Shown one piece after another: positions 16,112 through 51,738 of a stretch of 64,000 bases of DNA. Source of the DNA: Gracilaria domingensis (taxonomy: Eukaryota > Rhodophyta > Florideophyceae > Gracilariales > Gracilariaceae). Each line of letters opens with the position of its first letter. Positions within the stretch are counted from its first letter, which is position 1. The DNA lies in assembly GCA_022539475.1 (NCBI GenBank), contig VCMS01000022.1, forward strand, positions 666,237 to 730,236. Reading direction: 5' to 3'. The notes beneath the pieces were generated by a model that was given only the letters and a program-made list of their open reading frames with translations, searched no databases and was not told the DNA's origin. A program made the translations under genes and the position numbers.

Positions 16112-16128
16112 AAGGGAGACTCCCTCGT

Positions 16129-17901: not shown

Positions 17902-17944
17902 AGGAAATGTGCGAACTCCCTCGTCTGTGTTTCCGGGATGCTAG

Positions 17945-18977: not shown

Positions 18978-18979
18978 AG

Positions 18980-23699: not shown

Positions 23700-25895
23700 T
23701 TACCCGAACAAGTTGGAGAACAACACTTGTCTCTTACCACCTCTCCCTCGTTCAGACTCTGTCGCGCGAACAACGGACGCTATCCAGGCATCAAGACGTG
23801 CCAGATGCATAATTGTTCCATCCACTGGATCCCTCTCTTCGGTATTCCTCGAACTTGTTTGTAAAACGTCGTAGCCCATGAACTCACGCAGCACCTCCAA
23901 GCTCAGGCTGTTCCGAAAAAGCAAGTCACATGGTTCATCTTCGGTTGCATGATATGGGTTAAAGCCCGAGAAACATATATCTTCTACCTTCTGAGTTCTC
24001 CACGACGACAGAATCTCACATCCATTTGCATCTTCGGGTAGGAGTTTTTCACGTACCTCTCTGGTTTGTATTTCATACTTGTTCTGCTCCATTTCATCAT
24101 TTTTTATCGGGGTCCTTACAAGCATGTCGTAACCTAGTCCCATCAATAACTTCTCCTTCGCATGGCGTTTTCGAACACCTATTGCATCACTTAAAGCCTG
24201 TTTCAACCTTCTGCGCAAACAAATGTCGTGCGTTAACTGTTTCACACAGTCATCTTCCATTTTCATTCCTCGGATAGATTCCCAACGTGGCTTCATTACC
24301 TCCGTCTCCACAATTTGCATCAACAAATGGTCGCCTCCACCACTTACGGATGGCGTGTACGCCCTCATCTCCATGGCAAGATCCATTGGGCACCGTGGCA
24401 CTATCTCCTTCCCATCAACAACCAGCACACTGTCGTCTTTCTCAGGTCCAACTGTCCCACTTCGGTTGCCCCAGTTCCTTGCCGGTATACTCATCTCGAA
24501 GCATAGCTCTCTTGTCTCGTCTTTGGCGTATTGAAGTATGGAGTCATAGACGGTCTTCGCAACACCAACAAACTTGTCGTTCACGTCAATGTTGTACCGC
24601 TTCCTGCTCTTGTTACTGTCACGTTCGTTCCTTTTCCCTCCACGTCTGAGAGCCTCTCTCAAAGAGTGTATGAGAACCTCTTGTTCTCTGACCTTAACCT
24701 CCAGTTGCTCTATGTTCTTCTGAGCAAGTCGTACGCTCATTTTCAGACTTTGCTTGTCCTCTATTGTACGATACAGATCTCCCTTCAGTTTCCCGATCTT
24801 TTCCAAAAGCTCGTATCGCGGAGTAAGGGATTCATCTTCATCTTCTTCCATTGCACCATGCAGGGAAAAGCTCCGTGACAAAGCACCACGATCAACATCT
24901 TTATCGTTCCATACTTCTCTACGGGCGTTTGCTATGACAGGTTGCCGATCGTTCCCCCCCCGTCTATTCTCATTTCCATGGTTCGTCCTTCTTCTGACCT
25001 GATTGAACCTGTTTCTCTGTGACTCACCTGTGACTGGTGTCAGTTGTATCTCGTCTTCGTCTTCGTCTTCCTTGTGTCTGGACCCAATATGAGGGACGGA
25101 ATCATGCCTGCCTTCGATGGGAGCCATATGCGTTGCATTTCCGGCGTCCACCTTGTCGTTCGCCTCCACGTTATCCTTGTCCTCGACGTCACTTGGGATA
25201 TCTACTGCGTCCGTGGACTCCCACTCCTTTCTTCCACTGCCTTTCTTGGCACGAGAGACACCCTCATTCATTTTCTCGTTCCTCTTCACTTTTCTCGAAT
25301 CATAACTGTTACGTTCTGTTCCGGCAGCGCTTCTGGGTATCTCCCTATCCCCAGGTTCGGCTCTAGGTTCGGCTCTCACGATGGCGCAATCCACGGTTTC
25401 CATCTCCGCATTGTCATCCGCAGTTCTCACCTTGTCGAAACAATCATCGATACGAGGACCTTCTGTTCCTCCACTGCCTCTTGTCCTCCTTACATTCTGA
25501 CGTACAGCCGTTCTTCTCTTATTTCCTTTCATCGCTTTGATATCTACATTTCCATCATCACTGACCCTTGGCTCTTCCATTGCAGCCATGTGGCGTGTAA
25601 CAGGCCCACGCATTGCACTATCCTTGGCTTGAACGGTTTCACTTACTGTGCGTTCCGTGGTGCATGTGGAAGCTCCTGACCTCCTTCTCGGTTTTACTTC
25701 CGATACTGTAGATGAAGATTTTGGTTTGCGAAGTCCATCACGAGGTGCTCGGCCTCGGCTACCTCTCCCATTAGTAGCACTACTTCGTGAGACGACCGCG
25801 CTCCTACGTTTGGCCACCCCAGTATCCCAGCGCTCCGGCGGTACCGATGCCTTTCGCGGTTTACCACCTGCATGCTCCGCACGTTGAGGAGCCAT
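23700..25895 (-). CDS. Basic/acidic coiled-coil protein A (cassette unit A)
   Basis: From ATG at 25895 the frame gives 731 residues, starting MAPQRAEHAGGKPRKASV. The first 350 residues are Arg/Lys/Ser-rich and disordered-looking with acidic patches (KEDEDEDEIQL), suggesting a nuclear, nucleic-acid- or chromatin-binding tail. A coiled coil follows at about 355-420 (ELLEKIGKLKGDLYRTIEDK and LEVKVREQEVLIHSLREAL). Then comes a globular half with YNIDVNDKFVGVAKTVYDSI, which is shared with coiled-coil protein B. No catalytic motif is recognised. It follows the methyltransferase and SET frames on the same strand, about 460 bases away, and the same order is repeated in unit B, so it is probably a partner or scaffold of those enzymes. 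The start was chosen by comparison with protein B; the frame is open further upstream. Confidence 0.7.
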   Translation of the reverse strand: MAPQRAEHAGGKPRKASVPPERWDTGVAKRRSAVVSRSSATNGRGSRGRAPRDGLRKPKSSSTVSEVKPRRRSGASTCTTERTVSETVQAKDSAMRGPVTRHMAAMEEPRVSDDGNVDIKAMKGNKRRTAVRQNVRRTRGSGGTEGPRIDDCFDKVRTADDNAEMETVDCAIVRAEPRAEPGDREIPRSAAGTERNSYDSRKVKRNEKMNEGVSRAKKGSGRKEWESTDAVDIPSDVEDKDNVEANDKVDAGNATHMAPIEGRHDSVPHIGSRHKEDEDEDEIQLTPVTGESQRNRFNQVRRRTNHGNENRRGGNDRQPVIANARREVWNDKDVDRGALSRSFSLHGAMEEDEDESLTPRYELLEKIGKLKGDLYRTIEDKQSLKMSVRLAQKNIEQLEVKVREQEVLIHSLREALRRGGKRNERDSNKSRKRYNIDVNDKFVGVAKTVYDSILQYAKDETRELCFEMSIPARNWGNRSGTVGPEKDDSVLVVDGKEIVPRCPMDLAMEMRAYTPSVSGGGDHLLMQIVETEVMKPRWESIRGMKMEDDCVKQLTHDICLRRRLKQALSDAIGVRKRHAKEKLLMGLGYDMLVRTPIKNDEMEQNKYEIQTREVREKLLPEDANGCEILSSWRTQKVEDICFSGFNPYHATEDEPCDLLFRNSLSLEVLREFMGYDVLQTSSRNTEERDPVDGTIMHLARLDAWIASVVRATESERGRGGKRQVLFSNLFG

Positions 25896-26359
25896 CCGAG
25901 ATCCTTCGGCCTTCGTGCGCGGTATTATTACGGAACAGATATAGAAACGTGAACGATACTGAAGGTATATGATTGAGAGTGATATGTGAGGGTCACGTAC
26001 TCGGTGTGCAGGACTGATATGTGAAGGGGAGGGGAATTTAACCTCGTACTGCATATATGGAGAAAAGCATTCTGCAGCATTTGTGGCGGATCGGCATTCA
26101 ATTTTTGGACCTTTCCCGGGTCCATATTCCGGACTTGGTCCGATTTTCCCGGATGTTGCGCCCTGCATATACAAGTACGGCACTTTCAACGATCTTTCAT
26201 ACCACTATATGCATCAATATGTTACACAGTACAGCTTGAGTGTACATATGAGTAGTATTTCTGCAATCATAGCACAAGTGTTCAATACAATTTACTTCAA
26301 CAAAAAGCTTTTCTCACTACATTGAGCCCATACGAAGTTCAAGGACATTGTCGGAGAAC
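25896..26359 (-). promoter_or_regulatory. Intergenic region upstream of coiled-coil gene A
   Basis: This is the spacer between the SET stop and the coiled-coil start. On the minus strand CCATATATG (near 26050) is a TATA-like word about 155 bases before the ATG, so the gene may have its own promoter. No other signal was recognised. Confidence 0.3.
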
Positions 26360-26962
26360 CTAGGTTAACCTTTCCCAAGGATATGTGGGTCCATAGTCAA
26401 CGTAAATTTCGTCGTGCTCCCTAATGTCCCTTGAGGCCGTGACTACGAGGAGTCTGTAGTTCTCCAAAAGCCCCAAAGTTGTAGCCTGATACTCTGTGGG
26501 CTGGCGAATGAATACATTTGCTTGGCGTGCCATGTTAGAATCCATTTCTTCCAATTCCTTGTCCTCATCACCTTCACGATATGACGCGTCATTGATATAG
26601 CCCGCTACACAGAAAGGAGCAGGAACTATCCAGGCATGACCAGCGTTGACTTCAGTATCATAATGCGGGAGAGTGTTGTACATTTGCCCCTTCACCCTCA
26701 CTTGCTTGCAATACTTCCTGAACCGAGATGCAGTGGCCCCCAGCATTCCGTCTCCATACGTCAAATGTGTGGTATTGCGTCGGCTTAGAACATGATACAC
26801 CAAGGTCCCATAAAAGTATCCAATAACCTCCCCTTCGGAAAACGCCCTACTCGTAAATACTCCATTTCCACTTCCTGCATGTTTGATATTCGACTTCTTC
26901 ACATAGAGCCATAGCGATGTCGCCTCGACAGAGAGTAAAGTGTGAGTGTCCCACGTAGTCAT
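26360..26962 (-). CDS. SET-domain protein A
   Basis: The 200 codons cover essentially one SET domain. GNGVFTSRAFSEGEVIGYFY (33-52) is the N-terminal SET strand pattern, and YGTLVY follows. GYINDASY (121-128) with ANVFIRQ (148-154) occupies the place of the usual N-H-S-C-x-P-N region. DIREHDEIYVDYGPTYPW (179-196) is the C-terminal (I)xxxEEIxxDYG pattern. SET enzymes use S-adenosylmethionine to methylate protein lysines, classically on histones. The canonical HSC is not present, so activity is inferred. The frame is the same as that of the upstream methyltransferase, separated from it by one stop and 24 codons, and the residues in that gap resemble the corresponding part of unit B. The two may therefore form one translation unit or descend from a fusion. 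Confidence 0.75.
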   Translation of the reverse strand: MTTWDTHTLLSVEATSLWLYVKKSNIKHAGSGNGVFTSRAFSEGEVIGYFYGTLVYHVLSRRNTTHLTYGDGMLGATASRFRKYCKQVRVKGQMYNTLPHYDTEVNAGHAWIVPAPFCVAGYINDASYREGDEDKELEEMDSNMARQANVFIRQPTEYQATTLGLLENYRLLVVTASRDIREHDEIYVDYGPTYPWERLT

Positions 26963-27034
26963 CTTCCCTTGTAAGGCAAGTGGCCACTCATGGAACGGTT
27001 TCTCTTTGTACGTAGTGATAAGACCAGGTTCATT

Positions 27035-29527
27035 CTAATAGGTGGATAGGTACGACATGATATGGAATGGGAAAGATTGGTACGATGGGAAACCCCTGGG
27101 TGCCTTCCATATAGTCGAAGTCTTTCGTTTCCGTTCAGGAAATTCGGCATCCACCACATAAGACGCTTGAACTACCTCATTCGTAACCGGTTCTTTCATC
27201 TTCAATTCATTGCGCCACACCTTTCTTGCGTAATGCACAATAGCATTGTGCTTGGCATGAGAGAAACACTGCTCATCTTGCTCACATCCAATGAAACGCC
27301 GAGGCCCCTCAATATCCATACATGCCAGCGCGCACGAGAACGTCCCGGAGTAGAGATCAACCACAACATCCCCGGGATTCGAGAACCTCGCTATCAGCTC
27401 CATCAGTAGTTGCCTCGACTTTTGTTCTGGACGAGCCTTCGCGGTTCGAATTCTTCTACCACTCTTCACTCTCCATCGGAGACTCTCCCCAGGCGTAAGA
27501 TTTGGAACCTGGTCAATGATAGAATAGTGCCCAGGATAGCGAGCTGAAACGTAGTTGAAGTTCTGATAGTTCACCATTACCTTCTGTTCCGCGTACGGGT
27601 TTCCATTCCTCACGCCATGCCCGGCGTACTCCGTCGCCCCAAACAGGCGAGTAGTATTACGCGCAGGGTTCTTCAAGGGGTTCGAACGAGAACGAATGAA
27701 GTTCATGGGCGTCGAATCCACTAAGAATGATGCGGTTTTCTTTCCGCTTGCGTCCTCCGACTTGTGCTCTCGCAAACTCTCTTCCCAGTCTCCAAACTGG
27801 TCGATACTGCAGAACAAAACGAAATGTCCTCCTGGTCGAAGCATGGATGCCATGATGTCCGCAGTATTGTCCATATCATCGTCAGCCAATTCGTCGTACT
27901 CGCTGTCGCGGATGCCATATGGTGGGTCTGTGAGCACGAACTGAACGTTGCCTTCCAAAGATGTATCCGATGGGAAGATAGTACCATGGGCCTCCACCTG
28001 TTCGTCATATCCGACACAATGCATTGAGAATTGCTTCTCCATGCTTCCTCGCACCACATCTAGAGCATTTAACGTGCGCGTGTCATCAAAGTCATGAGGG
28101 AGGAGAACCCCATCTGGAACGTTATCTTTCGCCCCAACAGAGGCACCAGGTGTATCACCTTCTTCATTGTCGCTATCGAGGATGACGATGACATCGGAGT
28201 TAACTGAGCTTTTCCCTGCGGCGTTCCTCTTGGAGGAGCTCGGAATCTGTATCGAGTCCTCAACCTTAACCGTGACGGTATTACTTCCTCCATCCTGCCC
28301 TGAAGGAGCGGCCCTAGGGATAAGTCGAGATGGTTGGAGGTTATGTACAGACATCGCTTGACGAATAGAAGACATGTACTCTTTGGAGAATACATTGAAA
28401 CGGGGTGGTACTCGTGCGGGGCGGCCAGGTCTGAAGCTTTCCAACAAATTCCATCTTGACGTTGGGGACATTTTGTATAGGAAGCCATTCAACACAATCT
28501 TGCTGAAATCTGCCAAGAATTCCTTTGCCAACTCCCGTAAGTTGGCGTCGATAGTATCCGGAAGAGTATGAACCCAAGAAACGGTGTCGTTCACATCCAA
28601 CGTGGGTTTCAGTTCTTCCCCCAACGTATGAAAAGCTGACTCCGGACTGTACCCAACAGAGCGGGATTCAATGACATGGAACCCAAGCGACTTCTTTTCT
28701 ACAAGCAGGTATGGCAGCAACATCTGCTCACCATCACCAAAGCCTAAGGTTGAGGCAAAGAAATCCCATCCCTTACAAATCGTTTGCACTGCATGTGCCA
28801 TCCGTCTCCCGTGCGTCTCATTCGAAGCTATGTAGCCGTCGACGAACTGCACAGCTCTATGGGTTCCCTTCCCGGTCTTTCCTCTCTTCGCCGCTGGGAG
28901 ATTTCTCTCCGAAGTTATATGCTTCACGAAAGAGAGATAGAGTAACTGCTGAAAACGAGTAAGAGGCCCAATCCTGAACGTAGTTCTCTTCGTCTGCTTA
29001 CTGCCTGGACCATGTCGTTTGAAAAGGTCATTCCAGAAAGCCCGTTCTATGAACGAGTTACCGTTGTCGACATCCTTTTCAAGACTCCAGGTAAACAAAT
29101 CTCTCACGCGCCGATCAGAATTCTCGTCGTCTAGATCAGTGATACGCGTATATTTGTAGACCCTGCTCAGAAAACGCACGTCCAGACAGATCTTCGTGAC
29201 TTCTTTTGCGGAGTAGTTTTGGAAAGGACCCTTGACCGCAGTGGTGATGAACTCTCGTGCACATGCCAGGTGTTCACGGTTTGATACAGCGTATTTCACA
29301 ACTTCCGTGTACCCAACTTCACGCGGATTACCAGTACCACTTCTTGAAGCGGCATACGCATCTCGCAACTCAATGAACAACCCCCAACATTTCAAGAAAC
29401 GCGTTGCCATGCTGGCTGAATCGAACGACGCGCTAGAGGATGCGCTAGAGGATACCGTGCCGTGGTTCTCATCGGCCAGCACACTCTGCTTAACAGTCCG
29501 AGGAGCGTCATTTCCGGTGGACGCCAT
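27035..29527 (-). CDS. DPPY-type DNA (amino) methyltransferase A
   Basis: The frame is 830 codons, starting MASTGNDAPRTVKQS, with a TTTAAA box 70 bases upstream. Residues 1 to about 410 form a mostly helical N-terminal domain, shared only with copy B. A linker carries VKVED (a sumoylation-type site) and DVIVILDSDNEEGD (a SUMO-interacting-type motif near 444). The catalytic domain has VLTDPPYG (motif IV, near 534), a GGHFVLFCSIDQFGDW block, then PEQKSRQLLMELIARF and DVVVDLYSGTFSCALACM (motif I, near 720) and FIGCEQDEQC. Motif IV before motif I is the beta-class order of amino-methyltransferases. DPPY favours adenine-N6 but cytosine-N4 is possible. It would methylate DNA in the nucleus. Its neighbours are a SET protein and a coiled-coil protein. 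This copy looks intact, and I found no introns. Confidence 0.8.
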   Translation of the reverse strand: MASTGNDAPRTVKQSVLADENHGTVSSSASSSASFDSASMATRFLKCWGLFIELRDAYAASRSGTGNPREVGYTEVVKYAVSNREHLACAREFITTAVKGPFQNYSAKEVTKICLDVRFLSRVYKYTRITDLDDENSDRRVRDLFTWSLEKDVDNGNSFIERAFWNDLFKRHGPGSKQTKRTTFRIGPLTRFQQLLYLSFVKHITSERNLPAAKRGKTGKGTHRAVQFVDGYIASNETHGRRMAHAVQTICKGWDFFASTLGFGDGEQMLLPYLLVEKKSLGFHVIESRSVGYSPESAFHTLGEELKPTLDVNDTVSWVHTLPDTIDANLRELAKEFLADFSKIVLNGFLYKMSPTSRWNLLESFRPGRPARVPPRFNVFSKEYMSSIRQAMSVHNLQPSRLIPRAAPSGQDGGSNTVTVKVEDSIQIPSSSKRNAAGKSSVNSDVIVILDSDNEEGDTPGASVGAKDNVPDGVLLPHDFDDTRTLNALDVVRGSMEKQFSMHCVGYDEQVEAHGTIFPSDTSLEGNVQFVLTDPPYGIRDSEYDELADDDMDNTADIMASMLRPGGHFVLFCSIDQFGDWEESLREHKSEDASGKKTASFLVDSTPMNFIRSRSNPLKNPARNTTRLFGATEYAGHGVRNGNPYAEQKVMVNYQNFNYVSARYPGHYSIIDQVPNLTPGESLRWRVKSGRRIRTAKARPEQKSRQLLMELIARFSNPGDVVVDLYSGTFSCALACMDIEGPRRFIGCEQDEQCFSHAKHNAIVHYARKVWRNELKMKEPVTNEVVQASYVVDAEFPERKRKTSTIWKAPRGFPSYQSFPFHIMSYLSTY

Positions 29528-29596
29528 GTAAGAACTGAGAATCGGAAAGGACGCGAAGTAAACGAGTATTGTGAAACGGTAGAAGTTTCGGAGATG

Positions 29597-29602
29597 TTTA
29601 AA
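29597..29602 (-). promoter_or_regulatory. TTTAAA box of methyltransferase gene A
   Basis: CCATTTAAA on the minus strand lies about 70 bases before the methyltransferase ATG. The same CCATTTAAA word, at a similar distance, precedes the ParB-side gene, and it also sits close upstream of methyltransferase B. Confidence 0.5.
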
Positions 29603-29749
29603 TGGGTGGGAAGCGTCGGAAACAATGGTGGAGAGCGCGGTTGCGACGGATTACCGAGAACTGAGCGGGTAATGAAATAGAGAGACGAGAGTGGGATCTA
29701 AACACATCAAACCGGTGGGGCACCTCAGTGTGTGCAGTGCATTATATGT

Positions 29750-31105
29750 CTAGTATGTAAAACCAACGTAGAAAACACTGGGTTCGTACATCTTTGAACA
29801 TCGCCCGAGCGCGGTGTGGGAACCGCGGTTCGCCGGGTTCATAGCCGAGATCATAGCTATGAGCGACTCACCTTCGAGCCATAGCTCACTTGTTTCTCTC
29901 CTTGCCCACGTGAGCATGTTGTGATACACTGCTCGAGCAACCCCTTGAAACTCGTCGCACACCTCAATTTTATGCTTCTTTCGACCTGTCTGCCCAGGTT
30001 CACCAGCACGTGTACTCCTATCTCCCTCCTGTTTCAGTGCCCCTCTTAGCCCTTCAATGACTAGATCCTTCTCTTCAAGCCTCTTTTTCAAAGCCGTACT
30101 CTGCTCTTGGGCGACCTTCACTAGAATTCCCCGAACCATCAAGTCCTCTTGTAGCGTCTTAACCTTTTCTTTCAAGCAATTCAGTTCATTTAAAAGATCA
30201 GGTCTGTTCATAGAGCTTGAATTCACACCAGTTTGGATATCTTCCGTTATTTCCCTAGCTTCTTCGGCGACAGGCCCCGGTAATGCCGCAGGATTCGGTG
30301 TTATTTCGTTATCGGAACTATCCTCATGTGCCATAGCCTTAGACACGAGAGGCTGCAGGCGTTCTGTGTCCACCCTTGGCACGGCTCCGAGCTCCAACTC
30401 CCGTGTCTGTCCTCCTCCATGGCATGGTATATCAGATGAATTGGGCCTCGTACGAGCTGCAACGGCCCCCGTTCTGGAAAGAGGGGAAGGTCGAGGAGTA
30501 ACTCGTCTATCAGTTGTCTCTCGAATTCTTATTGTCTTTCTCCCTTGTCCGGACCCATTGCGAGGCATGATACGATTCATAGCGGCCCCAGTTCTAGAAG
30601 ACAGCGATGGACGTGACGATCTTAATATACTAGGGCTCTCACGACTTCTCGTCATTGTCCCTTGTTGTCCAGATCCACTGGGCGGCGTAACCCGCGCCCC
30701 AGTAGCTCCGGTCTTCGATATCGGCCGGGGACATGAAGGTTTTGGTGTCATACGAACCTCTTCATTTCCAGTTGTCATGCCCTCCTGTCCTGACCCGCTG
30801 GGCCGAGTTACCTCATCTTCTTGAGGAGCAGAGACAGATGCACGATTTGCATTATCGGCAGTTGACGGCACGACATCGTTCGCTGATCCACGAATTCTTG
30901 ACGCAATCCCGGAAGACGCTCCGCTGCGAGATGGGCGAGAGAGTTCTGTAGAAGGACGCCCACTGACTCTCTCCTTCGTCGAGGACGACTTCCGTTTAGG
31001 AAGTGCGGTGCTTGTAGCCTGATTCGTATCATCCGATGCTCTTCTCTTCTTCTGTCCACTCTTGTTCCGCTGCGTACTATTTCGCTTTCTCGGCGTTATA
31101 CCCAT
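29750..31105 (-). CDS. Coiled-coil protein B (cassette unit B, shortened)
   Basis: The 451-residue frame starts MGITPRKRNSTQRNKSGQ. It has the same plan as protein A: a basic Ser/Arg-rich tail, here with a repeated PSGSGQ / RNGSGQG theme at about 90-190, an acidic patch, a coiled coil (LLNELNCLKEKVKTLQEDL and LEEKDLVIEGLRGALK) and the shared block HKIEVCDEFQGVARAVYHNM. It stops about 40 residues after that block, whereas protein A continues for about 280 more, so the globular half is missing or was cut when unit A came to lie next to it. It follows SET/methyltransferase B on the same strand. Its function is unknown and inferred only by association. Confidence 0.6.
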   Translation of the reverse strand: MGITPRKRNSTQRNKSGQKKRRASDDTNQATSTALPKRKSSSTKERVSGRPSTELSRPSRSGASSGIASRIRGSANDVVPSTADNANRASVSAPQEDEVTRPSGSGQEGMTTGNEEVRMTPKPSCPRPISKTGATGARVTPPSGSGQQGTMTRSRESPSILRSSRPSLSSRTGAAMNRIMPRNGSGQGRKTIRIRETTDRRVTPRPSPLSRTGAVAARTRPNSSDIPCHGGGQTRELELGAVPRVDTERLQPLVSKAMAHEDSSDNEITPNPAALPGPVAEEAREITEDIQTGVNSSSMNRPDLLNELNCLKEKVKTLQEDLMVRGILVKVAQEQSTALKKRLEEKDLVIEGLRGALKQEGDRSTRAGEPGQTGRKKHKIEVCDEFQGVARAVYHNMLTWARRETSELWLEGESLIAMISAMNPANRGSHTALGRCSKMYEPSVFYVGFTY

Positions 31106-31139
31106 GTTGTGGAGATAAACAGGGTAATGAAACGAAATT

Positions 31140-31171
31140 GTTGGGGAGGGGGGGAGGGGGTGGGGGAGGTG
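31140..31171. repeat. G-run tract upstream of coiled-coil gene B
   Basis: Five runs of four or more guanines in about 30 bases on the plus strand (template strand of the gene) could form a G-quadruplex just upstream of the start codon. It could equally be a chance homopurine tract. Confidence 0.5.
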
Positions 31172-31351
31172 CTTGGTTCAGATATTCCGGGAGACTCCGC
31201 AGTCCCGCTTTTTAGGAATTTGAGGTGCCCAATGGGTCGCAAATATCGCCGTTACAGATGAAGAGCTCCAGTGTACATGTACAACAACGCGTATTGCAGG
31301 CAGCTGCAACATTCACAAGCATATTTACTTTCTATTCGGTACTGAACTCAT

Positions 31352-34300
31352 CTATTGCTCCAATGTCAGAGCCCAGTCCCAGGCATACTGCTCTCCGTAG
31401 TTGAAATACAACTCTTCGCCCCTCTCAATATCTCTTACTGCTCTACAACGAAGTAGAGCATAGTTAGAAAGGTCTGACTTGAACTGTATCACGGACTTCG
31501 CTTCCACCACCTGCACATTGGCACTTCGAGTCCTGTTTGACCGGGGCTCCGATAAATCGGGATCCCCGGCATGATATCCGGCGTCGTTAATGTAGCCCCC
31601 GATACAAAAAGGCGCCGGGACAATGTAGACTTCGCTCTCCTTTCTATCCTGAGCCTGTCCTGGTCTGTTCCTCAGGTGCAGAAACTCCGTACCAGTCACA
31701 GTGACCATCATAGAAAACAACTTGTACCGCACTGGAGTTGCTCCGAGACAGCCACTTCCATACGTTAAGTGTCTTTCCTTCCGGTTCGTCAGATCCGTTT
31801 ATACCAAAGTTCCATAGAAATGACAGATAGTTTCCCCAGCCAATATCTTATGTTCCGTGAACACCCCCATACCAGCACGGGGATGTCGAATCTTAGAAGA
31901 TGCTATATGTAAGCGATAGCGATTGGCTTCAACAGTCAACAGCATATGCATATCCATAAGATTCAGAGCTCCTCGGTACTTCCCCTCCCAAAGATCTACA
32001 GTACGCTGTCCACACTTCTCGACAAAGTCCCAGTCCTTCCAGTTCTTCCTAGGAACTGAGTAATATGTCCAGGCATCACTTGGTACTGGGGGTAACCAAA
32101 TGGAGCCTCCCATTCAAGCCGACCTCGGTCCCGATGTGGAACCCGTTCATAGGTCGTTGAAGCCGCATCCACCACCTCCTGTTCAACCAGGATGTCATTC
32201 TTCCCCCCCGAATAACTTCGGCCATAAGAGTCGTTAGATGGTGCTTCGCATGGCTGAAACATGCCTATTCTTCTCGCACCCCAAGAACTTCCTATGCTTT
32301 GTCAGCGATAGGCACGCCATACCCGTAGAAAAAGTTCCCGCGAACATGTCCATGACAAGATCACCCGGTCTTGTGAAGCGACATATCAACTCCTTCATCA
32401 ACTCCCTCGACTTCTGCTCCGGTCTTATGTACTGCCCACCTGGTACTGAGCTACCTGGCTCATGTACCTTCCATGTCAACCACTCCCCCGCCCTCGGTTT
32501 GGGCACCCGGTCAATTACATTCCTGTTAGCCGGGAAAGTGGAAGGAATGAAATTGTTCTCCTCAAATGGAGTAAGACTGGCTTCCTCCGATGGTCGCAAT
32601 CCACGCTTCACCCCATGAACGGCGTACTCCGTTACGGGCTGTATCCCAAACTTCCGTGGATTCCCTCCAACATTACTGCGATCCCGGATGAACACCAGTG
32701 GATTCGCATCCACTTTAAACGAAGGCATGAGTTCTGGTTTACCTTCGCTTCCAGCCTCATCTTTCGTACTCGCCGTTTCCGAAAGTATCCTGTGCCACAC
32801 ATGAAACTGTGCCATGGCACAGAATATAATGAAGTGCCCACCTGACCGAAGCGCGGAACTTATTAAGTCAGCCGTACGGATCATGTCTTCCTCACTGAAG
32901 ACATCGTGACCACTATTCCGTTTGTTCCTCTTCCTTCGAGTGTTAAAGGGAGGGTCTGTTAGGACAAGCTGTGCCTCACCCCATAAAATCTCACTCTGAT
33001 TCACAAACGTTTCGTGTGTGTGCCTCAGGTCCTTCATGTCACAGTTGTACGCTACAAAGTGTGACTTTCTCATCCCCTTCCACACCTTCTCCATATTCAT
33101 TCGAAGGAGACTGGATATCCCCTTCATGGGCGGCTCAATACCAGTCTTTTGGATGTTGTAACCGGCAACCCGAGATTCATGCTCCGCAAGATTCACCGGC
33201 TTCTCGAACTCGTCGCTATCGGAGCTCACGAGGTTCATATACTCTCGACGAGGTGGGGGTGGGGCAGACTTGGTCGAAGAAGGTTCGGCATTACCGGAAG
33301 TTTTAGGGGTTTCGTCAGTTCAATATCAGGTTTCGCGTGAATGCCGACATGGAACCCTGCGGCATGACGCATATCCTGTATCGGTTTCCATAGCAACTCC
33401 GAAAACTTCTGAAATCGAGCAGGCAACTCACCGGAGTCAGAACCAGATACGGTATCCATCCGTATCTCCGAAAACTCTATCCAGTTCCTCATCTGATCAG
33501 CCCGTAAGCTATAGAGGCTATCGTGGGTGCATATGGTTTCGAGGTCTGTCAAAAACTCCTTAGCCAGTATTCGCAGGTTTGTATCGCATTCATCACTCAA
33601 GGTCTCCACCGATCCACTAGTACTGCTCTGTGGCACATCCTTTGTGTTGAATCGAGTACTCTGGCTCGGCGGGGCATAACCAGACTCCCGTGTCTCTAGC
33701 GCTGTATACTTCAACGTCTGCATATTCATGTAAATGTATGGTTTCACCATGTGCTGAACGTTCGTGTATCCAAGATGAGCCGCAAAACAACTCCATGCCC
33801 ATACGACCTCACTGATAGCGAATCCCAGTCGATCACAGTTGTCTTTGGAGAACGACGTAAAAGTGGGTATGTACACAGATGGTGCATGGTTCATTTTCGT
33901 TTCTTTTTCGGTTGTTTCTTCTTCATCATTCGGATGTTGTCGTTCTCTCCCATTATGTGGCCGAGGTATGATAAGTATATAACGACCTCAAATGGGTTCA
34001 CAGCTGTTGGTGGGATGAACACTGTCGTCTTCAGAACCTGCTTTCTCCTGGTCATGAAATAACCAACCAGGCATCGCACCGGTAGGTATATACCCATATC
34101 CATAGAGAGAAGGAAAAAATCGTGCAGTCTCTGGTCCTCATCCCGTCCTTCTTGTCAAGAAGCTTCGTTACAAGATATCGTGTTCCACAGGTTTGTTATT
34201 CACAACACTCTTTCGCAGCTGTTGCAGTGTCAAGTTCTGCAGGTTCTTGGAGTTAGTGGCCTCCTCAAACATCTTCCTTGCCTCCGGAATATCCTTATAG

Positions 34301-34481
34301 TTCTCGGCGCAGAACTCTATTAACCCTCTAAACCCACGTCCCGTGGCCGATCAGGGCCTCCATCGCTGTTTGCCAAAGCATCGCGAAGAACCAAGAAAAG
34401 TCTGACATATGCATGGAACGCCGGAGGCGGAGCACTCATGTCGATAGGATGTATCTCCTCTCCAACATCGGTGGAATCCAT
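31352..34481 (-). pseudogene. Methyltransferase and SET protein B (decayed paralogue)
   Basis: On the minus strand, from MDSTDVGEEIHPIDMSAPPP onward, successive frames match methyltransferase A and then SET A in order. The matches are the N-terminal LFLVLRDALANS and RPRDVGLEG against the A copy's FIELRDAYAAS and NPREVGY, then the catalytic VLTDPPFNTRRKRN, PEQKSRELMKELICRF, DLVMDMFAGTFSTGMACL and FLGCEKNRH, and SET blocks GMGVFTEHKILAGETI, GYINDAGY, ANVQVVEAK and LYFNYGEQYAW. The reading frame is interrupted several times, so it appears to be a pseudogene, though motif residues remain. Identity to A is low, about a third by eye, so the duplication is old or two lineages were brought together. 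Its start lies only 30 bases from a TTTAAA box in the inverted repeat. Confidence 0.7.
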
Positions 34482-34510
34482 CGCTTCAGCGCAAACAACG
34501 GAGGCGAGCC

Positions 34511-34516
34511 TTTAAA
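34511..34516 (-). promoter_or_regulatory. TTTAAA box in left arm (methyltransferase B side)
   Basis: The box reads CCATTTAAAGGCTCGCC on the minus strand and is identical to the word in the right arm. It lies 30 bases from the inferred ATG of copy B. Confidence 0.45.
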
Positions 34517-34804
34517 TGGCGACTTACGCTGGGCACCCCCGCTTTCGGCAGCTCCTCCCAGCGCACTGCCAGTCTCGTCCGTGTCCGTGTCCGCTCGGAA
34601 CGATAGCGTCGCGTGTCGGCCACGTCGCGATTCGGAGCTATTGCAAGGGTCCGTATTGTGCTAAAAGTCGCGGATCAAGTGGGTGTGAAGCGCTAGTTTT
34701 CTCTAGTTTGATATATGTGCACGGCGTGTGCAGCGAAATCACTGCCGGAAGTGCCGGGAGGAGTGTTTGGGAGGTCTCCGGAAGGCGCCGGAATGTGCCA
34801 GAAC

Positions 34805-35579
34805 GTGCCCGCGGGCGGGGGGGGGTCGGTCGTGTTAGGGTAGGTACCCTACACGACCGGACCCCCCGCCCGCGGGCATAAATCGCACATTTTTCAAAAA
34901 ATCGTCCAAAATGTGCCCGCGGGCGGGGGGGTCCAGTCGTGTTAGGGTACCTACCCTAACACGACCGACCCCCCCGCCCGCGGGCACGTTTTGGACGATT
35001 TTTTGACACCCTCCGGAGACCTCCCAAAACACTCCTCCCGGCACTTCCTGTACCCACTGCGTCACCTCAGTGCACCATCCCGGAAATTAGGGAGTGTCTG
35101 GAGGGTGGAGAAGACGGGATGGTCATGGATGGAGAGACGGATGGTCACCTCAGTGCACCATCCCGGAAATTAGGGAGTGTCTGGAGGGTGAAGATGACGG
35201 ATGGTGCACTAAGGTGACGCAGTGGGTACAGGAAGTGCCGGGAGGAGTGTTTTGGGAGGTCTCCGGAGGGTGCAAAATGTCCAGAACGTGCCCGCGGGCG
35301 GGGGGGTCGGTCGTGTTAGGGTACTACCCTAACACGACGGACCCCCCCGCCCGCGGGCACGTTTTGGGCGATTTTTTGAAAAATGTGCGATTTTATGCCC
35401 GCGGGCGGGGGGGTCGGTCGTGTTAGGGTACCTACCCTAACACGACCGCCCCCCCCCGCCCGCGGGCACGTTTTGGACGATTTTTTGAAAAATGTGCGAT
35501 TTTATGCCCGCGGGCGGGGGGGTCCGGTCGTGTTAGGGTACCTACCCTAACACGACCGACCCCCCCCGCCCGCGGGCAC
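34805..35579. repeat. Array of five ~75-bp palindromes
   Basis: Each unit is an almost loop-free palindrome whose arm runs GCCCGCGGGCGGGGGGG, TCGGTCGTG, TTAGGGTA. Units begin near 34805, 34912, 35287, 35396 and 35505. The last three are spaced 109 bases apart by an AT-rich spacer containing TTTTTTGAAAAATGTGCGA. Units differ by a few bases, so they were duplicated and kept similar. Confidence 0.85.
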
Positions 35580-35919
35580 GTTCTGGCCACATTCGGTGCC
35601 TTCCCGGGACCTCCCAAAACACGCCGCGCGCAGTGATTTCGCTACACCCGGCCGCCGGTACGTTGGCGCCGCTGTCCACGTGTATTGCGGGAGTAGGCTG
35701 TACATGGAAGTGAATGAGTGTACTCTTGACTACTATGCAAAGCATTTGAAGAGCATGATTAGAGAACGCGACCATTGCTCGCGTGAGTCATCATTGCGCG
35801 AACTCCACGACTCTAAAGCGTACAATCAGCGTGCGAGCGGCCACGGACAGGACACGGACGAGACTGGCAGTGCGCTGGGAGGAGCTGCCGAAAGCGGGGG
35901 TGCCCAGCGTAAGTCGCCA

Positions 35920-35925
35920 TTTAAA
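35920..35925 (+). promoter_or_regulatory. TTTAAA box in right arm (ParB side)
   Basis: CCATTTAAAGGCTCGCC in the right arm lies 77 bases before the ATG at 36002, at a distance typical of TATA boxes in compact genomes. Confidence 0.5.
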
Positions 35926-36001
35926 GGCTCGCCTCCGTTGTTGTATCGTCCAGAGCGAGCGTATTGTTGATATACACCTTTCACTGCAATAGCTGTTCAA
36001 C

Positions 36002-36607
36002 ATGAAGCCAACTCGTGTTCGAAAGCGTACGCAAAGCGTGACTCCTCGCACTCGGCGGAGCACTCGATTATTGCAAGGTGGAATGCGGGTTTCTCTGCAG
36101 ATGGATATTGAGGATGAAGGAAAGGTGATAGTCGGGGAAGCGTTGTTGCATGGAATTGGAAGTGTTCTACGCCGCGAGTTGCACGGGAAGCAATTGGACC
36201 CAGGTCTTGTGGTGGTTCATAATATTCTCATCAGTCGAAGCGGTCAGACGTTCTACCCTTACCGGGCGGAGGGCCTGGATCTTCCACAATATATCCAGGA
36301 TCTCCGGACGGCCGCTCCTTGGGATGAGAAAATGATGGAACCGGTGGCAGCCAGCATTCCGGCGTCGAAGCGAGGAACGGTGAGCGCTATGAGTGAGGTG
36401 ATGACGCCGACAAGCCGCACGGAGCCAATTCGAAGTTCATCAACACCGAGAGGTAGCGCATCAGTAGCACCTCCGCGGCAGGTCCGTCGTCTGTTACGAA
36501 GCGGTCTATGGAGACGAGAGCATCCCCAGCTACGAAGCGGACAGGTCAAACAAAGTCTACCTCCGCTACGAAGCCCACTGCGTCGAAAAGGGCTTCTCCT
36601 GCGATGA
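36002..36607 (+). CDS. N-terminal ORF of the ParB-side gene
   Basis: The frame starts MKPTRVRKRTQSVTPRTRRS 77 bases after the TTTAAA box and gives 201 residues. A basic N-terminus of nuclear-localisation type precedes a small folded-looking block (MDIEDEGKVIVGEALLHGIG, then RELHGKQLDPGLVVVHNIL and QTFYPYRAEG). The last 50 residues are Arg/Ser-rich and overlap the ParB-like frame, which is open from 36457 in the -1 frame. The overlap falls in low-complexity sequence encoding repeated Ser/Thr-Ala-Thr-Lys units. One gene with a recent frameshift, a recoding event, a short intron or two genes are all possible. I do not recognise the folded block. Confidence 0.5.
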   Translation: MKPTRVRKRTQSVTPRTRRSTRLLQGGMRVSLQMDIEDEGKVIVGEALLHGIGSVLRRELHGKQLDPGLVVVHNILISRSGQTFYPYRAEGLDLPQYIQDLRTAAPWDEKMMEPVAASIPASKRGTVSAMSEVMTPTSRTEPIRSSSTPRGSASVAPPRQVRRLLRSGLWRREHPQLRSGQVKQSLPPLRSPLRRKGLLLR

Positions 36608-38025
36608 ATCAGACCGTCGACACAAGGGGATCTTCTGCGTCGAAACAGACGGTTCAGCAGGGGACGGCTGTGCAAGAGGAGGAAGATGAGATCATGAAAG
36701 GTCCCCTTCCAGACGCGGATGCGCAATCCGCGCAAGGAGCTGGTCCATCTGTACCCCAAACTGCACCAGAAACTGCGGAGCAGCAGGACGATGACGTTGT
36801 GCTTCTGTCCGCAAGAATGGCACGTTCAAGTGTTTCTGGCGAGCGGTCTGGAACACAAGGGACACCTACTCGGAGCAAGACGTACAGACGAATTCGTCAG
36901 AAGGTACCAAAGGTGAACCTCAATCAGTACCGGATGGTTGTTGTTACTGTTGACATCACTCTGGTGGACACTCCGCCCAATTTACTCCGTGGAGTAAGTA
37001 AACGCCACGTTGAAGCCCTTGTGAAGAGTATGGAGGAGCGGGGGATATTGCAGTCGATGGGTTCTCCAGTGGTGGCCTTACAAGATGCTACTACGGGAGA
37101 GAGGGATACTGACAAGGGACGCCTAACGAAGAAGTGCTTCATTGTAGATGGTTTGCATCGTCTGAAAGCTATACAATATTTGGCAGCGACTGGTGCACCG
37201 AAGTGGAAGCGATTAGCCAAGTTTTGGCGTTGCAATCTGCTGATACGAAGAGATGGGAGGCCCATTGGGATGAAGGAATTGTTATGTGTTGCTTCGTACC
37301 TCAATGAGTCGACGAGTACCATGCGAAGGATGATGTTTGCAGACAAGATACACTCTATAGTTAGTGTGGTCGCCATTCTAATTGAAGATGTTGAGGGGGT
37401 GACGCCGGCAGACGTGGATCCTGCAGAAGTGACAGAAGTGTTGAAGGAGAGCCAACTGATTGGGACTGTGCAAGAGCGTCAGTACCTGAGATATGCCAAT
37501 GTCGCCCTGCAACTCATGTCTCGTGAGGGAATGCTGGCCCATTTCGAGGATATATGTGAGACTGTGAGTGACATAGGTCTCACACATCTGTCCCATACTC
37601 CGCTATATGTTTTGGATGCCGAGGAGTTTTCCTTCATTCTTGATTGTCTTCAGATGTTTCTATTGAAGGGCAAGTCGACGAAGACAAAGCAATGGAAAAG
37701 CTTTGAGGAGGTTCGAGGTTTCTTTTATGATAGAGCAGTGTCTCTGTTCCGCGCGGCTAGAGCAGTGAGGAATGAACTGAACGAGGAAGAGTCCATGGAA
37801 GTGTTCCTGAAACGCGAAGTCAGTCTTTCTGCTCCATCGAATGAAGATGACGTTGAAGACCCAGACAACAACGCAGCTGTGTATCAGTTCCTTTTGGGAC
37901 AAGTTGTGAACTTCAACACATTGCCGCGTGTTCGGAGCAGGACGAACTCAATTAGAACTGCCACGACTTCCGTTCAGAATCGATTGCGGACGATGCTCAA
38001 GGTAATTCCGCCCCCGCACCAGTGA
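36457..38025 (+). CDS. ParB-like (ParB/Srx-fold) protein
   Basis: From the first ATG (36508) the frame encodes 505 residues. After an Ala/Ser/Thr/Lys-rich tail and an acidic patch with DDDVVLLSA, the ParB N-terminal-type domain begins near residue 140: VNLNQYRMVVVTVDITLVD, VSKRHVEALVKSMEERGILQ, and the motif FIVDGLHRLKAIQYLAA (211-227), which is the DGxHRxxA signature in place of ParB's GERR. A helical region follows. ParB/Srx folds bind nucleotides and in phages and bacteria act as DNA-binding switches or nucleases. Here it sits directly before a dioxygenase whose frame overlaps its stop. Nuclear DNA binding is inferred; nuclease activity is not shown. Confidence 0.7.
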   Translation, partial: RISSTSAAGPSSVTKRSMETRASPATKRTGQTKSTSATKPTASKRASPAMNQTVDTRGSSASKQTVQQGTAVQEEEDEIMKGPLPDADAQSAQGAGPSVPQTAPETAEQQDDDVVLLSARMARSSVSGERSGTQGTPTRSKTYRRIRQKVPKVNLNQYRMVVVTVDITLVDTPPNLLRGVSKRHVEALVKSMEERGILQSMGSPVVALQDATTGERDTDKGRLTKKCFIVDGLHRLKAIQYLAATGAPKWKRLAKFWRCNLLIRRDGRPIGMKELLCVASYLNESTSTMRRMMFADKIHSIVSVVAILIEDVEGVTPADVDPAEVTEVLKESQLIGTVQERQYLRYANVALQLMSREGMLAHFEDICETVSDIGLTHLSHTPLYVLDAEEFSFILDCLQMFLLKGKSTKTKQWKSFEEVRGFFYDRAVSLFRAARAVRNELNEEESMEVFLKREVSLSAPSNEDDVEDPDNNAAVYQFLLGQVVNFNTLPRVRSRTNSIRTATTSVQNRLRTMLKVIPPPHQ

Positions 38026-39917
38026 AGCAGTCCGTGACGAAGAGGAGGACTCCCGCTGCTGCTGCTGCAACATCTGCCAGTGAAGAAGGGGAGCCGCGAA
38101 GAAGTGCACGAGAACGGGCGCAGGTGAGTTATAGGGAAATTGAACACGGCCGAAATCGAGGTGCCATAGAAGTTCTGGATAGCTCTGAAGAAGAACAGCG
38201 GGCTCCGCCGAGGAAGAAACGGAGAAAGACTTTCACACAACAGATGAGATCTACTCTGAACAGCATGACACCGGATGACCTGATGTCTCAACTAAATGAA
38301 CATGTGCTGAGAGGAAGGTCGATGAAGGTTCAGTTCGTGGCATTGGGAGAGGGAGCGAATGCAGAGAACGCAGGCAGTTCTGCATTTGTGGATGACGAAG
38401 AGCTTCTTTCTGTGACAGTTCCACGGGTTGTCACCGTCGAGAAAGATGCTGCGCCAGACGATCAGCAAGAGACAGGTGGGGGGTCATTTGATGACGAGTT
38501 ACCTACAGCTCTTCCGGAATCTGAGGAGCACGGACTTGTTCGAGGTGACCCATATGATGGCCCACTGAACCCATCATGGTGCGGGTATGCCAGGCTGAGA
38601 CCGCAGGAATGGCAAGGGAAGAACGTAATTGAGCACAAGGACCCCTGGCTCAGAGTCATTCACTTGCCGAAGGGACATAGGTCGGAGCTGCTAAGTGTCT
38701 CGAATCTCAGAGATGTACACCATCTTGTCTTTTGGCACGCTGCAAGGGCTGAACATCGCCTACGGGCGGAGACATTTGGTATGCAGTATCCTCGTACTCG
38801 ACCGACAGGTATGGATGATGAAGAGGTGCTGTGGGTTGCTGCGAAGGAGCATGACGAATTTGGGCAAATGTTCTTCGCCCGAATGCAAGCTGAGCTAAGG
38901 CAGAATGGATATTGCGTGCTTGATGGCTTTGCGACGGATAATGGTGTCCCTAAATGGGAGGAGTTGGAAGAAGTTCGGGAGTTCGGAGATGTGTCGGGGA
39001 AGTTGGTGGACTTCTTCGAGAATGAGTATGGAGCGATGCCGGATATACGGAAAGGAGAGGAACAGAAGTCGTTTGTTCAAATAATCAACGATGATGAAGG
39101 ATGGAAGGACGGTAGCGATGGACCATTTGAGGGGAGAGTGATGTCGACACGTTGGGGTACGGTGGAGAAGCCGGAGGATAATGAGGAGCTCAGGTGGGTT
39201 GTAAGGTCGCGTGCTTTACTTGATGTTCGAATGGGTACAATTGCTGCGGCTTTGGGACTATGGGACAATGAAAGGGAAGCTGTGAAGATGTACACTCCGA
39301 AAACTGGTGGTCGATTTCTGGGGACGACGAGAAAGTGCAAGCGCCAGACGCTGCACACCGACTTCAGTGGTCTGGTTACGAAGGAAACAATGAATACTGG
39401 CAACCCCGGATACTTTGTAATGGCCTCTGGGAAAGAGGGCTTTCCTCTCTGGGTGAGCGCTGGAAGCCATCAACTGGTGGGGATGAACAACCAACAGTTG
39501 CGAGTGATGTCGGAGGTGTATCCAGCGAAGAAGATAATCATCCCACCGTACTCTGTATTCGTGGGCCGTGGTGATGTGACACATGCTGGAGCAAGTGGGA
39601 AGGACAAGGTGGATAGGCCCGAGTCTATGGATTTGCTGGTTAGATACCACATGTACATGGTACCAGAGGGCTACGCACTACCTGATGCTGTTCATCGGGT
39701 GCGGGATTTCCGACCCACGTTTGTCAATGGTGACGAGGAGGAGGAGGCGGAGGATGAACTGTTGTCCGATAAGGAGGGTGGGGCGGTTGACATGGACGAA
39801 GACCAAGTGGTCGTGGAGATTGGTGTGGAAGCGGACGCCGGTAGAACCGAAGTGCTCGAGAGTAGTAGTGATGACGATTTGCCAATAATGAGGCTGCGAG
39901 CGCCTCGAAGTGGATGA
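38022..39917 (+). CDS. 2-oxoglutarate/Fe(II)-dependent dioxygenase
   Basis: The frame is open from 37956. No ATG occurs before 38244, so the earlier part must be read by recoding, splicing, a non-ATG start or not at all. That part encodes a basic tail and AIEVLDSSEEE, a SUMO-interacting-type motif. The double-stranded beta-helix core carries LHTDFSG (His445 and Asp447 counted from 38022), PLWVSAGSH, IIPPYSVFVGRGDVTHAGAS (distal His521) and LLVRYHMY (Arg541), which complete the HxD...H iron facial triad and the 2-oxoglutarate salt-bridge Arg. The arrangement resembles PhyH-type oxygenases more than AlkB. The C-terminus is acidic. Position beside ParB and opposite a DNA methylase suggests a nucleic-acid or chromatin substrate, but nothing in the sequence proves this. 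Confidence 0.75.
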   Translation: MKQSVTKRRTPAAAAATSASEEGEPRRSARERAQVSYREIEHGRNRGAIEVLDSSEEEQRAPPRKKRRKTFTQQMRSTLNSMTPDDLMSQLNEHVLRGRSMKVQFVALGEGANAENAGSSAFVDDEELLSVTVPRVVTVEKDAAPDDQQETGGGSFDDELPTALPESEEHGLVRGDPYDGPLNPSWCGYARLRPQEWQGKNVIEHKDPWLRVIHLPKGHRSELLSVSNLRDVHHLVFWHAARAEHRLRAETFGMQYPRTRPTGMDDEEVLWVAAKEHDEFGQMFFARMQAELRQNGYCVLDGFATDNGVPKWEELEEVREFGDVSGKLVDFFENEYGAMPDIRKGEEQKSFVQIINDDEGWKDGSDGPFEGRVMSTRWGTVEKPEDNEELRWVVRSRALLDVRMGTIAAALGLWDNEREAVKMYTPKTGGRFLGTTRKCKRQTLHTDFSGLVTKETMNTGNPGYFVMASGKEGFPLWVSAGSHQLVGMNNQQLRVMSEVYPAKKIIIPPYSVFVGRGDVTHAGASGKDKVDRPESMDLLVRYHMYMVPEGYALPDAVHRVRDFRPTFVNGDEEEEAEDELLSDKEGGAVDMDEDQVVVEIGVEADAGRTEVLESSSDDDLPIMRLRAPRSG

Positions 39918-40856: not shown

Positions 40857-40993
40857 TGAACCGAGATTTATTGATACGGATGACGTCGTGACGTTCGGAA
40901 GTGCTTTGAGCGACGGGCTTTGCATGAGGTAGCGTGTAGCGGCGTTTCACGTGCAAAGAAGAACTTGTATCCCGGTGGAGTACAGAACCTGTT

Positions 40994-41298
40994 NNNNNNN
41001 NNNNNNNNNNNNNNNNNNNNNNNNNNNNNNNNNNNNNNNNNNNNNNNNNNNNNNNNNNNNNNNNNNNNNNNNNNNNNNNNNNNNNNNNNNNNNNNNNNNN
41101 NNNNNNNNNNNNNNNNNNNNNNNNNNNNNNNNNNNNNNNNNNNNNNNNNNNNNNNNNNNNNNNNNNNNNNNNNNNNNNNNNNNNNNNNNNNNNNNNNNNN
41201 NNNNNNNNNNNNNNNNNNNNNNNNNNNNNNNNNNNNNNNNNNNNNNNNNNNNNNNNNNNNNNNNNNNNNNNNNNNNNNNNNNNNNNNNNNNNNNNNNN
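40994..41298. other. Assembly gap (N run)
   Basis: A run of 305 N bases. Open frames that seem to cross it are artefacts. Confidence 1.
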
Positions 41299-44276: not shown

Positions 44277-44342
44277 AGATAGTAGCATAAATTTATTGTT
44301 TATTACATTGTTACCTTTACGTGTTATCACGACTATATTCTC

Positions 44343-51735: not shown

Positions 51736-51738
51736 AGA

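Follow-up and report, generated by a model that had tools for sequence, protein, structure and literature searches.

The window analysed here, a stretch of 64,000 nucleotides of the red alga Gracilaria domingensis, carries side by side a DNA amino-methyltransferase, a SET domain, a coiled-coil protein, a ParB-like protein and an oxygenase-like domain, which raises the question of what kind of unit they form and what it does. A first-pass annotation had read them as one eukaryotic cassette. The five-protein module it observed is real, but it is not a single-copy unit, and the window holds copies of two transposon families. The five genes are almost certainly the cargo of two families, A and B, of large cut-and-paste DNA transposons of the Plavaka type, with divergent fusions around a palindromic centre. 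A single host cassette was ruled out by copy number.

Layout and copies of the two families

In both families the gene order is transposase, coiled coil, DNA amino-methyltransferase–SET fusion, palindromic centre and a divergent ParB-like/oxygenase-like fusion. The window itself holds parts of two truncated elements, an A copy (17922-29862) that adjoins a B copy (29863-46314), and therefore the five proteins described earlier stem from two elements (Table 1). Both copies are decayed by stops and frameshifts. Ty3/gypsy-like frames are found on the flanks of the two truncated elements. The open reading frame at 29750-31105 was rejected as one protein because its first 113 bases belong to A; the coiled-coil frame of B is complete (832 aa) in L078. 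An in-frame stop separates SET from methyltransferase in the A copy of the window, whereas other A copies are in frame, and nine of 20 A loci have the two in one stop-free stretch. All five genes lie inside paired ends in the A copy on contig 12, and the claim that a eukaryotic unit combines DNA amino-methyltransferase, SET, coiled-coil, ParB-like and oxygenase-like parts is borne out there; the B gene set is a composite of several copies.

Table 1. Positions of the elements and their parts in the window.
Feature	Position	Strand	Evidence and remarks
Left terminal inverted repeat of A, CGTCTGTGTTTCCGGGATGCTAG	17922..17944	+	End pattern
Plavaka transposase of A, 951 aa	20108..22963	+	PF18759, 86.7 bits; same position in C12 and C25 copies
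Coiled-coil protein of A	23700..26189	-	Open reading frame; coiled coil judged by eye; 31% identity to B counterpart
SET domain of A	26360..26962	-	PF00856, 28.8 bits
N6/N4 amino-methyltransferase of A, 830 aa	27035..29527	-	PF01555, 52.3 bits; beta order (DPPY ahead of SAM motif); best PDB sequences DpnA, CcrM
Central palindrome of A	29814..29862	.	Left arm complete; right arm ends after six bases at A/B junction
Coiled-coil protein of B, truncated by junction	29863..31105	-	L078 (C171) and L079 (C465) match from 29860 onward
SET domain of B	31352..31873	-	Profile match; one internal stop in window copy
Methyltransferase of B	32234..33894	-	PF01555, 61.6 bits; two overlapping frames in window, single frame in L051
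Central region of B between divergent genes	34494..35942	.	93-bp perfect inverted repeat around several GTCGTGTTAGGGTA-NN-TACCCTAACACGAC palindromes
ParB/Srx-fold protein of B (predicted)	36002..38025	+	N-terminal piece 36002-36607 in different frame here; joined to oxygenase-like domain in L160
2OG/Fe(II)-oxygenase-like domain of B	38022..39917	+	Motif only (HxD...H...R)
Right-hand cargo of B	40164..46296	.	94-99% alignment to C164 as far as 46074
HAD-like frame of right-hand cargo of B	40164-40856	+	PF08282, 23.3 bits in L057
Masked N run in right-hand cargo of B	near 40994-41302		
Frame in right-hand cargo of B	42740-43903	-	
Frame in right-hand cargo of B	44818-45846	+	
Right terminal inverted repeat of B, CGTCTGTGTTCTGCAAAG	46297..46314	-	End pattern
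Another B copy	47574..51767	+	Left end CGTCTGTCTCTTGCAG and Plavaka transposase part, then interrupted

The Plavaka transposase domain (PF18759, cut-off 26.3 bits) scored 86.7 bits in A and 66.5 bits in B. Proteins of A and B share 31-46% identity, and gene order and fusions are common to both families; in a quick tree, A and B each group with another public sequence and not with each other. Inverted ends starting 5'-CGTCTGT were counted 93 times for A and 553 + 571 times for B (reversed-pattern controls 10, 1 and 0), the termini being 5'-CGTCTGTG in A and CGTCTGTC (left) and CGTCTGTG (right) in B. The termini 5'-TGT or 5'-CATCA given for the PlavakaA and PlavakaB sub-lineages in PMC12730594 are absent from the A and B ends. 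Nine of the 13 convergent A end pairs enclose a methyltransferase match. Among the 15 copies checked for target site duplications (11 of these 13 A pairs and four B pairs), eight showed a 2-bp duplication (5/11 A, 3/4 B) and seven showed none. Among B end pairs shorter than 16 kb, 28 of 31 enclose no gene match among those listed, which suggests that many mobile B copies lack the enzymes.

The co-occurrence elsewhere on which the first-pass annotation had made its reading depend was found: 48 of 142 SET matches have a listed ParB or oxygenase match no more than 12 kb away, compared with 3.6% of the genome. The spacing is also regular, with 3-6.5 kb between SET and ParB in 38 of the 41 SET matches that have a ParB match within 12 kb, and with SET no more than 4 kb away from 34 of 54 coiled-coil matches. 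Gene matches were found within paired ends.

The fusion proteins and the palindromic centre

Contrary to the earlier description of five separate proteins, methyltransferase and SET form a single frame of 1055 aa in one B locus (L051), and ParB and oxygenase-like domain one of 1136 aa in another (L160). The methyltransferase–SET fusion has 29 homologues in public data, one of them from Chondrus crispus. A profile scan of 31 rows found PF01555 in all 31 and SET (PF00856) in 29; DPP is present in 30 and RPEQK in 28 of the 31. Of the 30 rows that include a SET part, 29 keep its catalytic tyrosine and 14 have the exact DYG. PF01555 with motif IV (DPPY/F) ahead of the SAM motif places the enzyme in the beta class. 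Among solved structures, the catalytic half comes nearest to DpnA, CcrM and similar bacterial N6-adenine enzymes, and PF01555 domains have repeatedly evolved 6mA or 4mC specificity (PMC8885841); the mark of the predicted writer is more likely N6-methyladenine than N4-methylcytosine. No chromodomain was detected on the methyltransferase, L051 passing cut-offs for PF01555 and PF00856 only. Among themselves, the A methyltransferase copies show near-neutral divergence (pN/pS 0.84).

A viral origin of the fusion was rejected, as no relative appeared in a protein scan of viral contigs; the profile scan of viral contigs with the fusion (up to 600 pattern rows, best 80 of 82 loci) gave matches only within residues 507-792 and none to the SET part. 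A bacterial fusion was also rejected, with four MAG loci that match the methyltransferase part only.

Modelling supports a ParB-N/Srx fold for the ParB-like domain, and no ParA partner was recognised among the frames listed for the window and the element copies. The HxD...H...R motif of the oxygenase-like domain is whole in B; A (L052) has HxD and the distal H, after which the frame stops, and P0003 and P0004 stop ahead of the distal H. The model of this domain, from 8 sequences, has a pLDDT of 30. With the core of the domain as query, a profile search of the PDB returned unrelated rows only (best bone morphogenetic protein, E 0.055), and Pfam showed no match to TET/JBP for the A, B, P0001 and P0003 oxygenase frames, a search that remote TET types would escape. 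Profile and structure checks have upheld methyltransferase and SET by their Pfam matches and the ParB fold by model, but leave the oxygenase with its motif and no profile match. A homologue search that scored about 7,990 candidates sharing most words recovered P0003 itself and two Gracilaria proteins. The pN/pS of 0.31 for ParB of B is biased low because it was drawn from the best-scoring copies (best 20 of 85, plus the window reference).

Palindrome sites number 1180 for B (up to one mismatch) and 96 for A (up to two mismatches), with 0 in the reversed control. Of 14 B end pairs on six contigs, 11 enclose such sites, which sit approximately mid-element in 10 of these 11. Other palindromes of the window have perfect arms longer than those of its B centre: 28 bp for the one at 19056-19112 and 22 bp for the one at 50660-50704.

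Possible roles of the gene set

The best overall explanation, to which we assign a probability of roughly 0.5, is that these are Plavaka-type elements which manage their own chromatin. Taken by itself, the chromatin part, with predicted enzymatic activities, SET substrate, palindrome loading and benefit, falls just short of an even chance. The fusion would write an amino-methyl mark on DNA and, at that same site, methyl-lysine on the adjacent histones, while the ParB domain would load at the central palindromes and then slide outward. The oxygenase borne by ParB could strip or convert repressive methyl marks across the element, and the outcome would be permissive chromatin in which the transposase is expressed and the ends are accessible. 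Tentative, and on balance doubtful, is the strongest form of this proposal, in which a selfish element would encode a complete self-directed chromatin state through a joint DNA and histone writer and a sliding ParB clamp carrying an eraser from the central palindromes, so that the active state would be inherited independently of the host. We counted for the overall explanation the Plavaka transposases and end counts, the two fusions with their conserved motifs, the modelled ParB fold and the central palindromes, together with the coincidence of 6mA and H3K4me3 in several eukaryotes (PMC12695648) and the proposal that TET-bearing transposons, including Plavaka, escape silencing (PMC12730594). 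Counted against it were the findings of PMC12695648 that robust 6mA occurs only in species with AMT1, an enzyme of a different family, and that 6mA did not fall under H3K4me3 inhibitors. The repeated evolution of 6mA or 4mC specificity in PF01555 domains, the motif-only oxygenase, the decayed copies of the window, the near-neutral divergence of the A methyltransferase copies, the many B end pairs that enclose no listed gene match and the longer-armed palindromes outside the B centre also speak against it.

Alternatively, the gene set could license transposition: the methyltransferase would mark the element's own DNA, the transposase would need a given methylation state, the oxygenase would reset it and SET would be an accessory. 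Dam and Tn10 offer an example of a transposase acting only on a given methylation state. The kinship of the catalytic half with bacterial N6-adenine enzymes and the presence of writer and transposase within one element agree with licensing, but SET would be superfluous for licensing alone and is retained in 29 of the 31 scanned rows, and we consider this explanation unlikely. Somewhat less probable still is that the writer's DNA and histone marks repress the element and thereby limit the damage to its host. N4CMT with SETDB1 plays this part for transposons in bdelloid rotifers, whose captured PF01555 methyltransferase marks transposons and has a link to H3K9 methylation (PMC8885841); the bdelloid system, however, is host-owned, whereas in Gracilaria the element itself owns the gene, and its family is present in great numbers. 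The captured enzymes might also be passive or host-serving cargo without a part in the transposon life cycle, which would fit the decaying copies, the nearly neutral drift of A copies and the HAD-like and other frames likewise aboard. The gene order and fusions shared by the two families at 31-46% protein identity, the separate grouping of A and B with other public sequences and the conserved motifs argue against this, and we regard it as improbable. That unrelated repeats came together by chance in a region rich in transposons, as might be suspected where two truncated elements are juxtaposed between Ty3/gypsy-like frames, is highly improbable given the recurrent coiled coil–SET and SET–ParB distances (34/54 and 38/41) and the gene matches within paired ends.

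The methyltransferase–SET fusion would physically couple a DNA mark directly to a histone mark, in elements with more than 1,100 B-type ends in the G. domingensis genome. If active, it would be one way for red algae to acquire amino-methyl DNA, any 6mA or 4mC reported from these algae should then be weighed against transposon copies, and the ways in which amino-methyl DNA and histone marks can be linked would become testable. Moreover, ParB-type clamps would be extended to a eukaryotic mobile element.

Comparison with known systems

In phage base-modification clusters, ParB-like domains associate with oxygenases. Gracilaria shows such an association with an oxygenase-like domain, while the viral relatives found with the methyltransferase–SET fusion as query (best 80 of 82 loci) concern the methyltransferase part only. 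In agreement with the first-pass annotation, which knew of no account of this exact combination, we found none in open-licence papers; the reviews of Iyer and Aravind on eukaryotic adenine methylation may mention the fusion. The bdelloid N4CMT with SETDB1 is also a eukaryotic PF01555 amino-methyltransferase coupled to histone methylation, but there the gene is the host's own, carries a chromodomain and has SETDB1 as a distinct partner, whereas Gracilaria has both domains in one mobile-element protein (PMC8885841).

Several transposons share features with A and B. The Plavaka giant repeats of Amoebidium carry tyrosine recombinases, which match red algae and dinoflagellates, and heavy 5mC; the part of that paper drawn on here makes no mention of enzymes of the Gracilaria type (PMC11244446). 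HarbingerS and MuDR transposons of Phytophthora likewise encode a SET histone-methyltransferase domain, but belong to other transposase superfamilies, and the relevant part of PMC12730594 mentions no DNA methyltransferase or ParB. Closest, together with these SET-bearing transposons, are the fungal TET/JBP-bearing Plavaka, Kyakuja, Zisupton and other DNA transposons, which share the Plavaka-type transposase, duplications of 2 or 3 bp and an on-board candidate dioxygenase for DNA marks, and for which the escape from silencing was proposed (PMC12730594). The Gracilaria elements differ from them in their red-algal host, in ends with CGTCTGT instead of TGT or CATCA, and in an oxygenase-like domain without Pfam-detectable similarity to TET/JBP, although remote kinship is possible, the PE type of that paper being very remote as well (PMC12730594). 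Transposons with a single epigenetic enzyme are already known; in the Gracilaria elements the oxygenase-like domain shares one frame with a ParB-like domain and is accompanied by an amino-methyltransferase–SET fusion.

Copies, ends and linkage of the five genes

The five-gene set belongs to a transposon family, represented in the window by a truncated copy of each of two related Plavaka-type families, A and B. Across the 77.9-Mb genome of this red alga (680 contigs, of which the window covers positions 666237–730236 of contig 22), we found at least 150 scored SET matches, comprising 8 strong and 142 weaker ones that are alike in score and were mostly taken as a group, together with at least 64 matches to the A methyltransferase, 85 to the ParB-like part (92–100% identical), 70 to the oxygenase, 54 to the coiled coil and 46 to the B transposase. 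All of these counts are lower bounds, since scoring was restricted to the best candidates. Two public Gracilaria domingensis proteins match the oxygenase frame at 87–94%. Methyltransferase matches on contigs 84, 132, 157, 505 and 571, with 62–64% identity over nearly the whole query, hint at a third family.

The matches lie close to one another. Regions lying no more than 12 kb from a listed match to ParB or the oxygenase make up 3.6% of the genome; they hold 48 of the 142 weaker SET matches and none of the eight strong ones. Where a listed ParB match lay within 12 kb of SET, the distance was 3–6.5 kb in 38 of 41 cases. SET was also present within 4 kb of 34 of the 54 listed coiled-coil matches and within 8 kb of 17 of the 46 listed transposase matches; a coiled-coil match lay within 5 kb of eight of these 46.

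The elements have recognizable ends. The A end motif CGTCTGTGTTTCCGG occurs at 93 sites with at most one mismatch (control, 10), and nine of 13 convergent A pairs read off the motif list bracket a listed methyltransferase match. The left and right ends of B, CGTCTGTCTCTTGCAG and CGTCTGTGTTCTGCAAAG, occur at 553 and 571 sites (controls, 1 and 0); 85 left and 97 right ends were entered and gave 44 nearest pairs 6.4–24.3 kb apart. A listed gene match is held by 9 of the 13 B pairs of at least 16 kb and by 3 of the 31 shorter ones, which may be deletion derivatives mobilised in trans. Two-base duplications flank five of 11 A pairs and three of four B pairs. The A copy of contig 12 has inverted ends 19.98 kb apart, with the whole gene set between them, and aligns with that of contig 25 over about 17 kb. 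Two A right ends, on contigs 12 and 233, share one flank that falls, on contig 12, inside an oxygenase gene of B (98.6% over 146 bases); on contig 171, an A end lies where the oxygenase gene would be expected.

Gene order, fusions and the palindromic centre

From the left end, the order is transposase (+), coiled coil (−), SET and methyltransferase (−), palindromic centre, ParB-like and oxygenase-like (+), further frames and right end. The B order was assembled from the window and from copies on contigs 164 (incomplete transposase and no coiled coil), 171 (complete coiled coil, with a transposase) and 296 (ParB-oxygenase part). Methyltransferase and SET form a single 1055-aa frame in the B locus L051 (57.0 and 32.3 bits) and share one stop-free stretch at nine of 20 A loci; the window A copy is split. 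ParB and oxygenase form a single 1136-aa frame in the B locus L160 and are spread over more than one frame in the A copy of contig 12. Both parts occur in the public protein P0003, which stops short of the distal histidine, while P0002, an annotated G. domingensis protein, joins ParB to oxygenase-frame parts without the oxygenase core; its public name, "cell-wall-anchored protein SasA (LPXTG motif)", is misleading.

Coordinates of features in the window and in related copies
Feature	Sequence	Position	Remark
Plavaka transposase	window	20108-22963	upstream of window A genes
A–B junction	window	29862	A broken inside its central palindrome; adjoining B lacks left part
28-bp palindrome arms	window	19056-19112	left part of A
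TTAGGG/CCCTAA	window	34747-35586	within B central palindrome
B right-hand cargo	window	40164-45846	HAD-like hydrolase frames; further ones on other strand in locus L057
B frame	window	44818-45846	strong GC skew
22-bp palindrome arms	window	50660-50704	within further B copy
Ty3/gypsy-like gene set	window	11816-17940	by eye; one side of region
Ty3/gypsy-like gene set	window	52177-57515	by eye; other side, after interrupted B copy
Membrane-protein-like frame	A locus L052	4650-5513	by eye
Long frame	locus L078	7686-9362	left of contig 171 B element; no Pfam match; part of other repeat or gene
A right end	contig 12	85341-85355	common flank
A right end	contig 233	73115-73129	common flank
A end	contig 171	12793-12807

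In both families the divergent genes flank perfect palindromes. Two copies of the A centre (L010 and L016) have arms of 38–43 bp, and the window B centre has a 16-bp arm, against none of 12 or more in 20 shuffles of the region; the two other palindromes tabulated have longer arms than this. The B unit, GTCGTGTTAGGGTA-NN-TACCCTAACACGAC, occurs at 1180 sites and the A unit at 96, with no site for either reversed control. On six contigs, 33 of the 49 B-unit sites entered fall within a listed end pair, and the unit is present in 11 of the 14 B pairs, lying near the middle in ten (relative position 0.40–0.61) and at 0.11 in one. The repeat within the B palindrome is a common telomere unit. Many B gene matches lie close to contig ends, possibly because contigs broke at hairpins during assembly or because there is a genuine link to chromosome ends.

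Relatives and constraint

For the methyltransferase-SET part, a database search yielded 29 homologues. Both precomputed domains are present in 23; one homologue, from Chondrus crispus, is named adenine specific DNA methyltransferase. With L051 and window A added, PF01555 was found in all 31 rows and SET in 29; window A, with its SET in a separate frame, is one of the two exceptions. DPP is conserved in 30 of the 31 rows and RPEQK in 28; the SET tyrosine is present in 29 of the 30 rows with a SET part (absent in P0011), 14 of which have the exact DYG form. Among the matches listed from viral contigs and MAG loci, none carried a fusion to SET. A quick tree built on the catalytic region placed B with the public protein P0005 and A with P0006; both lineages therefore seem older than their spread in G. 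domingensis.

The A and B proteins are 31–46% identical, with pN of 0.38–0.51 and pS near saturation (0.72–0.82). Among 15 A methyltransferase copies pN/pS was 0.84, and among 21 B ParB copies 0.31, a value biased low because copies were chosen as best by protein score. Long-term constraint therefore finds its support in motif conservation and not in these ratios.

A possible mechanism and known systems

We propose, as the most economical reading, that the element governs its own chromatin. As one polypeptide, the methyltransferase-SET writer would couple a DNA mark to a histone mark. Bacterial ParB loads at a palindrome in a CTP-dependent way and then slides; by analogy, the centre could serve the ParB domain as a loading site from which it would carry the oxygenase-like domain along the element. 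The weakest link is the identity of the ParB-fused domain, a candidate oxygenase. Permissive marking appears more likely than self-silencing, since 6mA is reported to coincide with H3K4me3 (PMC12695648) and transposon-borne dioxygenases have been proposed to counter silencing (PMC12730594). However, PMC12695648 reports robust 6mA only with AMT1, an enzyme of a different family, and H3K4me3 inhibitors did not reduce 6mA there. PF01555 enzymes may also produce 4mC (PMC8885841).

In the open-licence literature we did not find a Plavaka transposase combined with a methyltransferase-SET fusion and a ParB-oxygenase fusion; transposons with a TET/JBP or a SET gene are already known.
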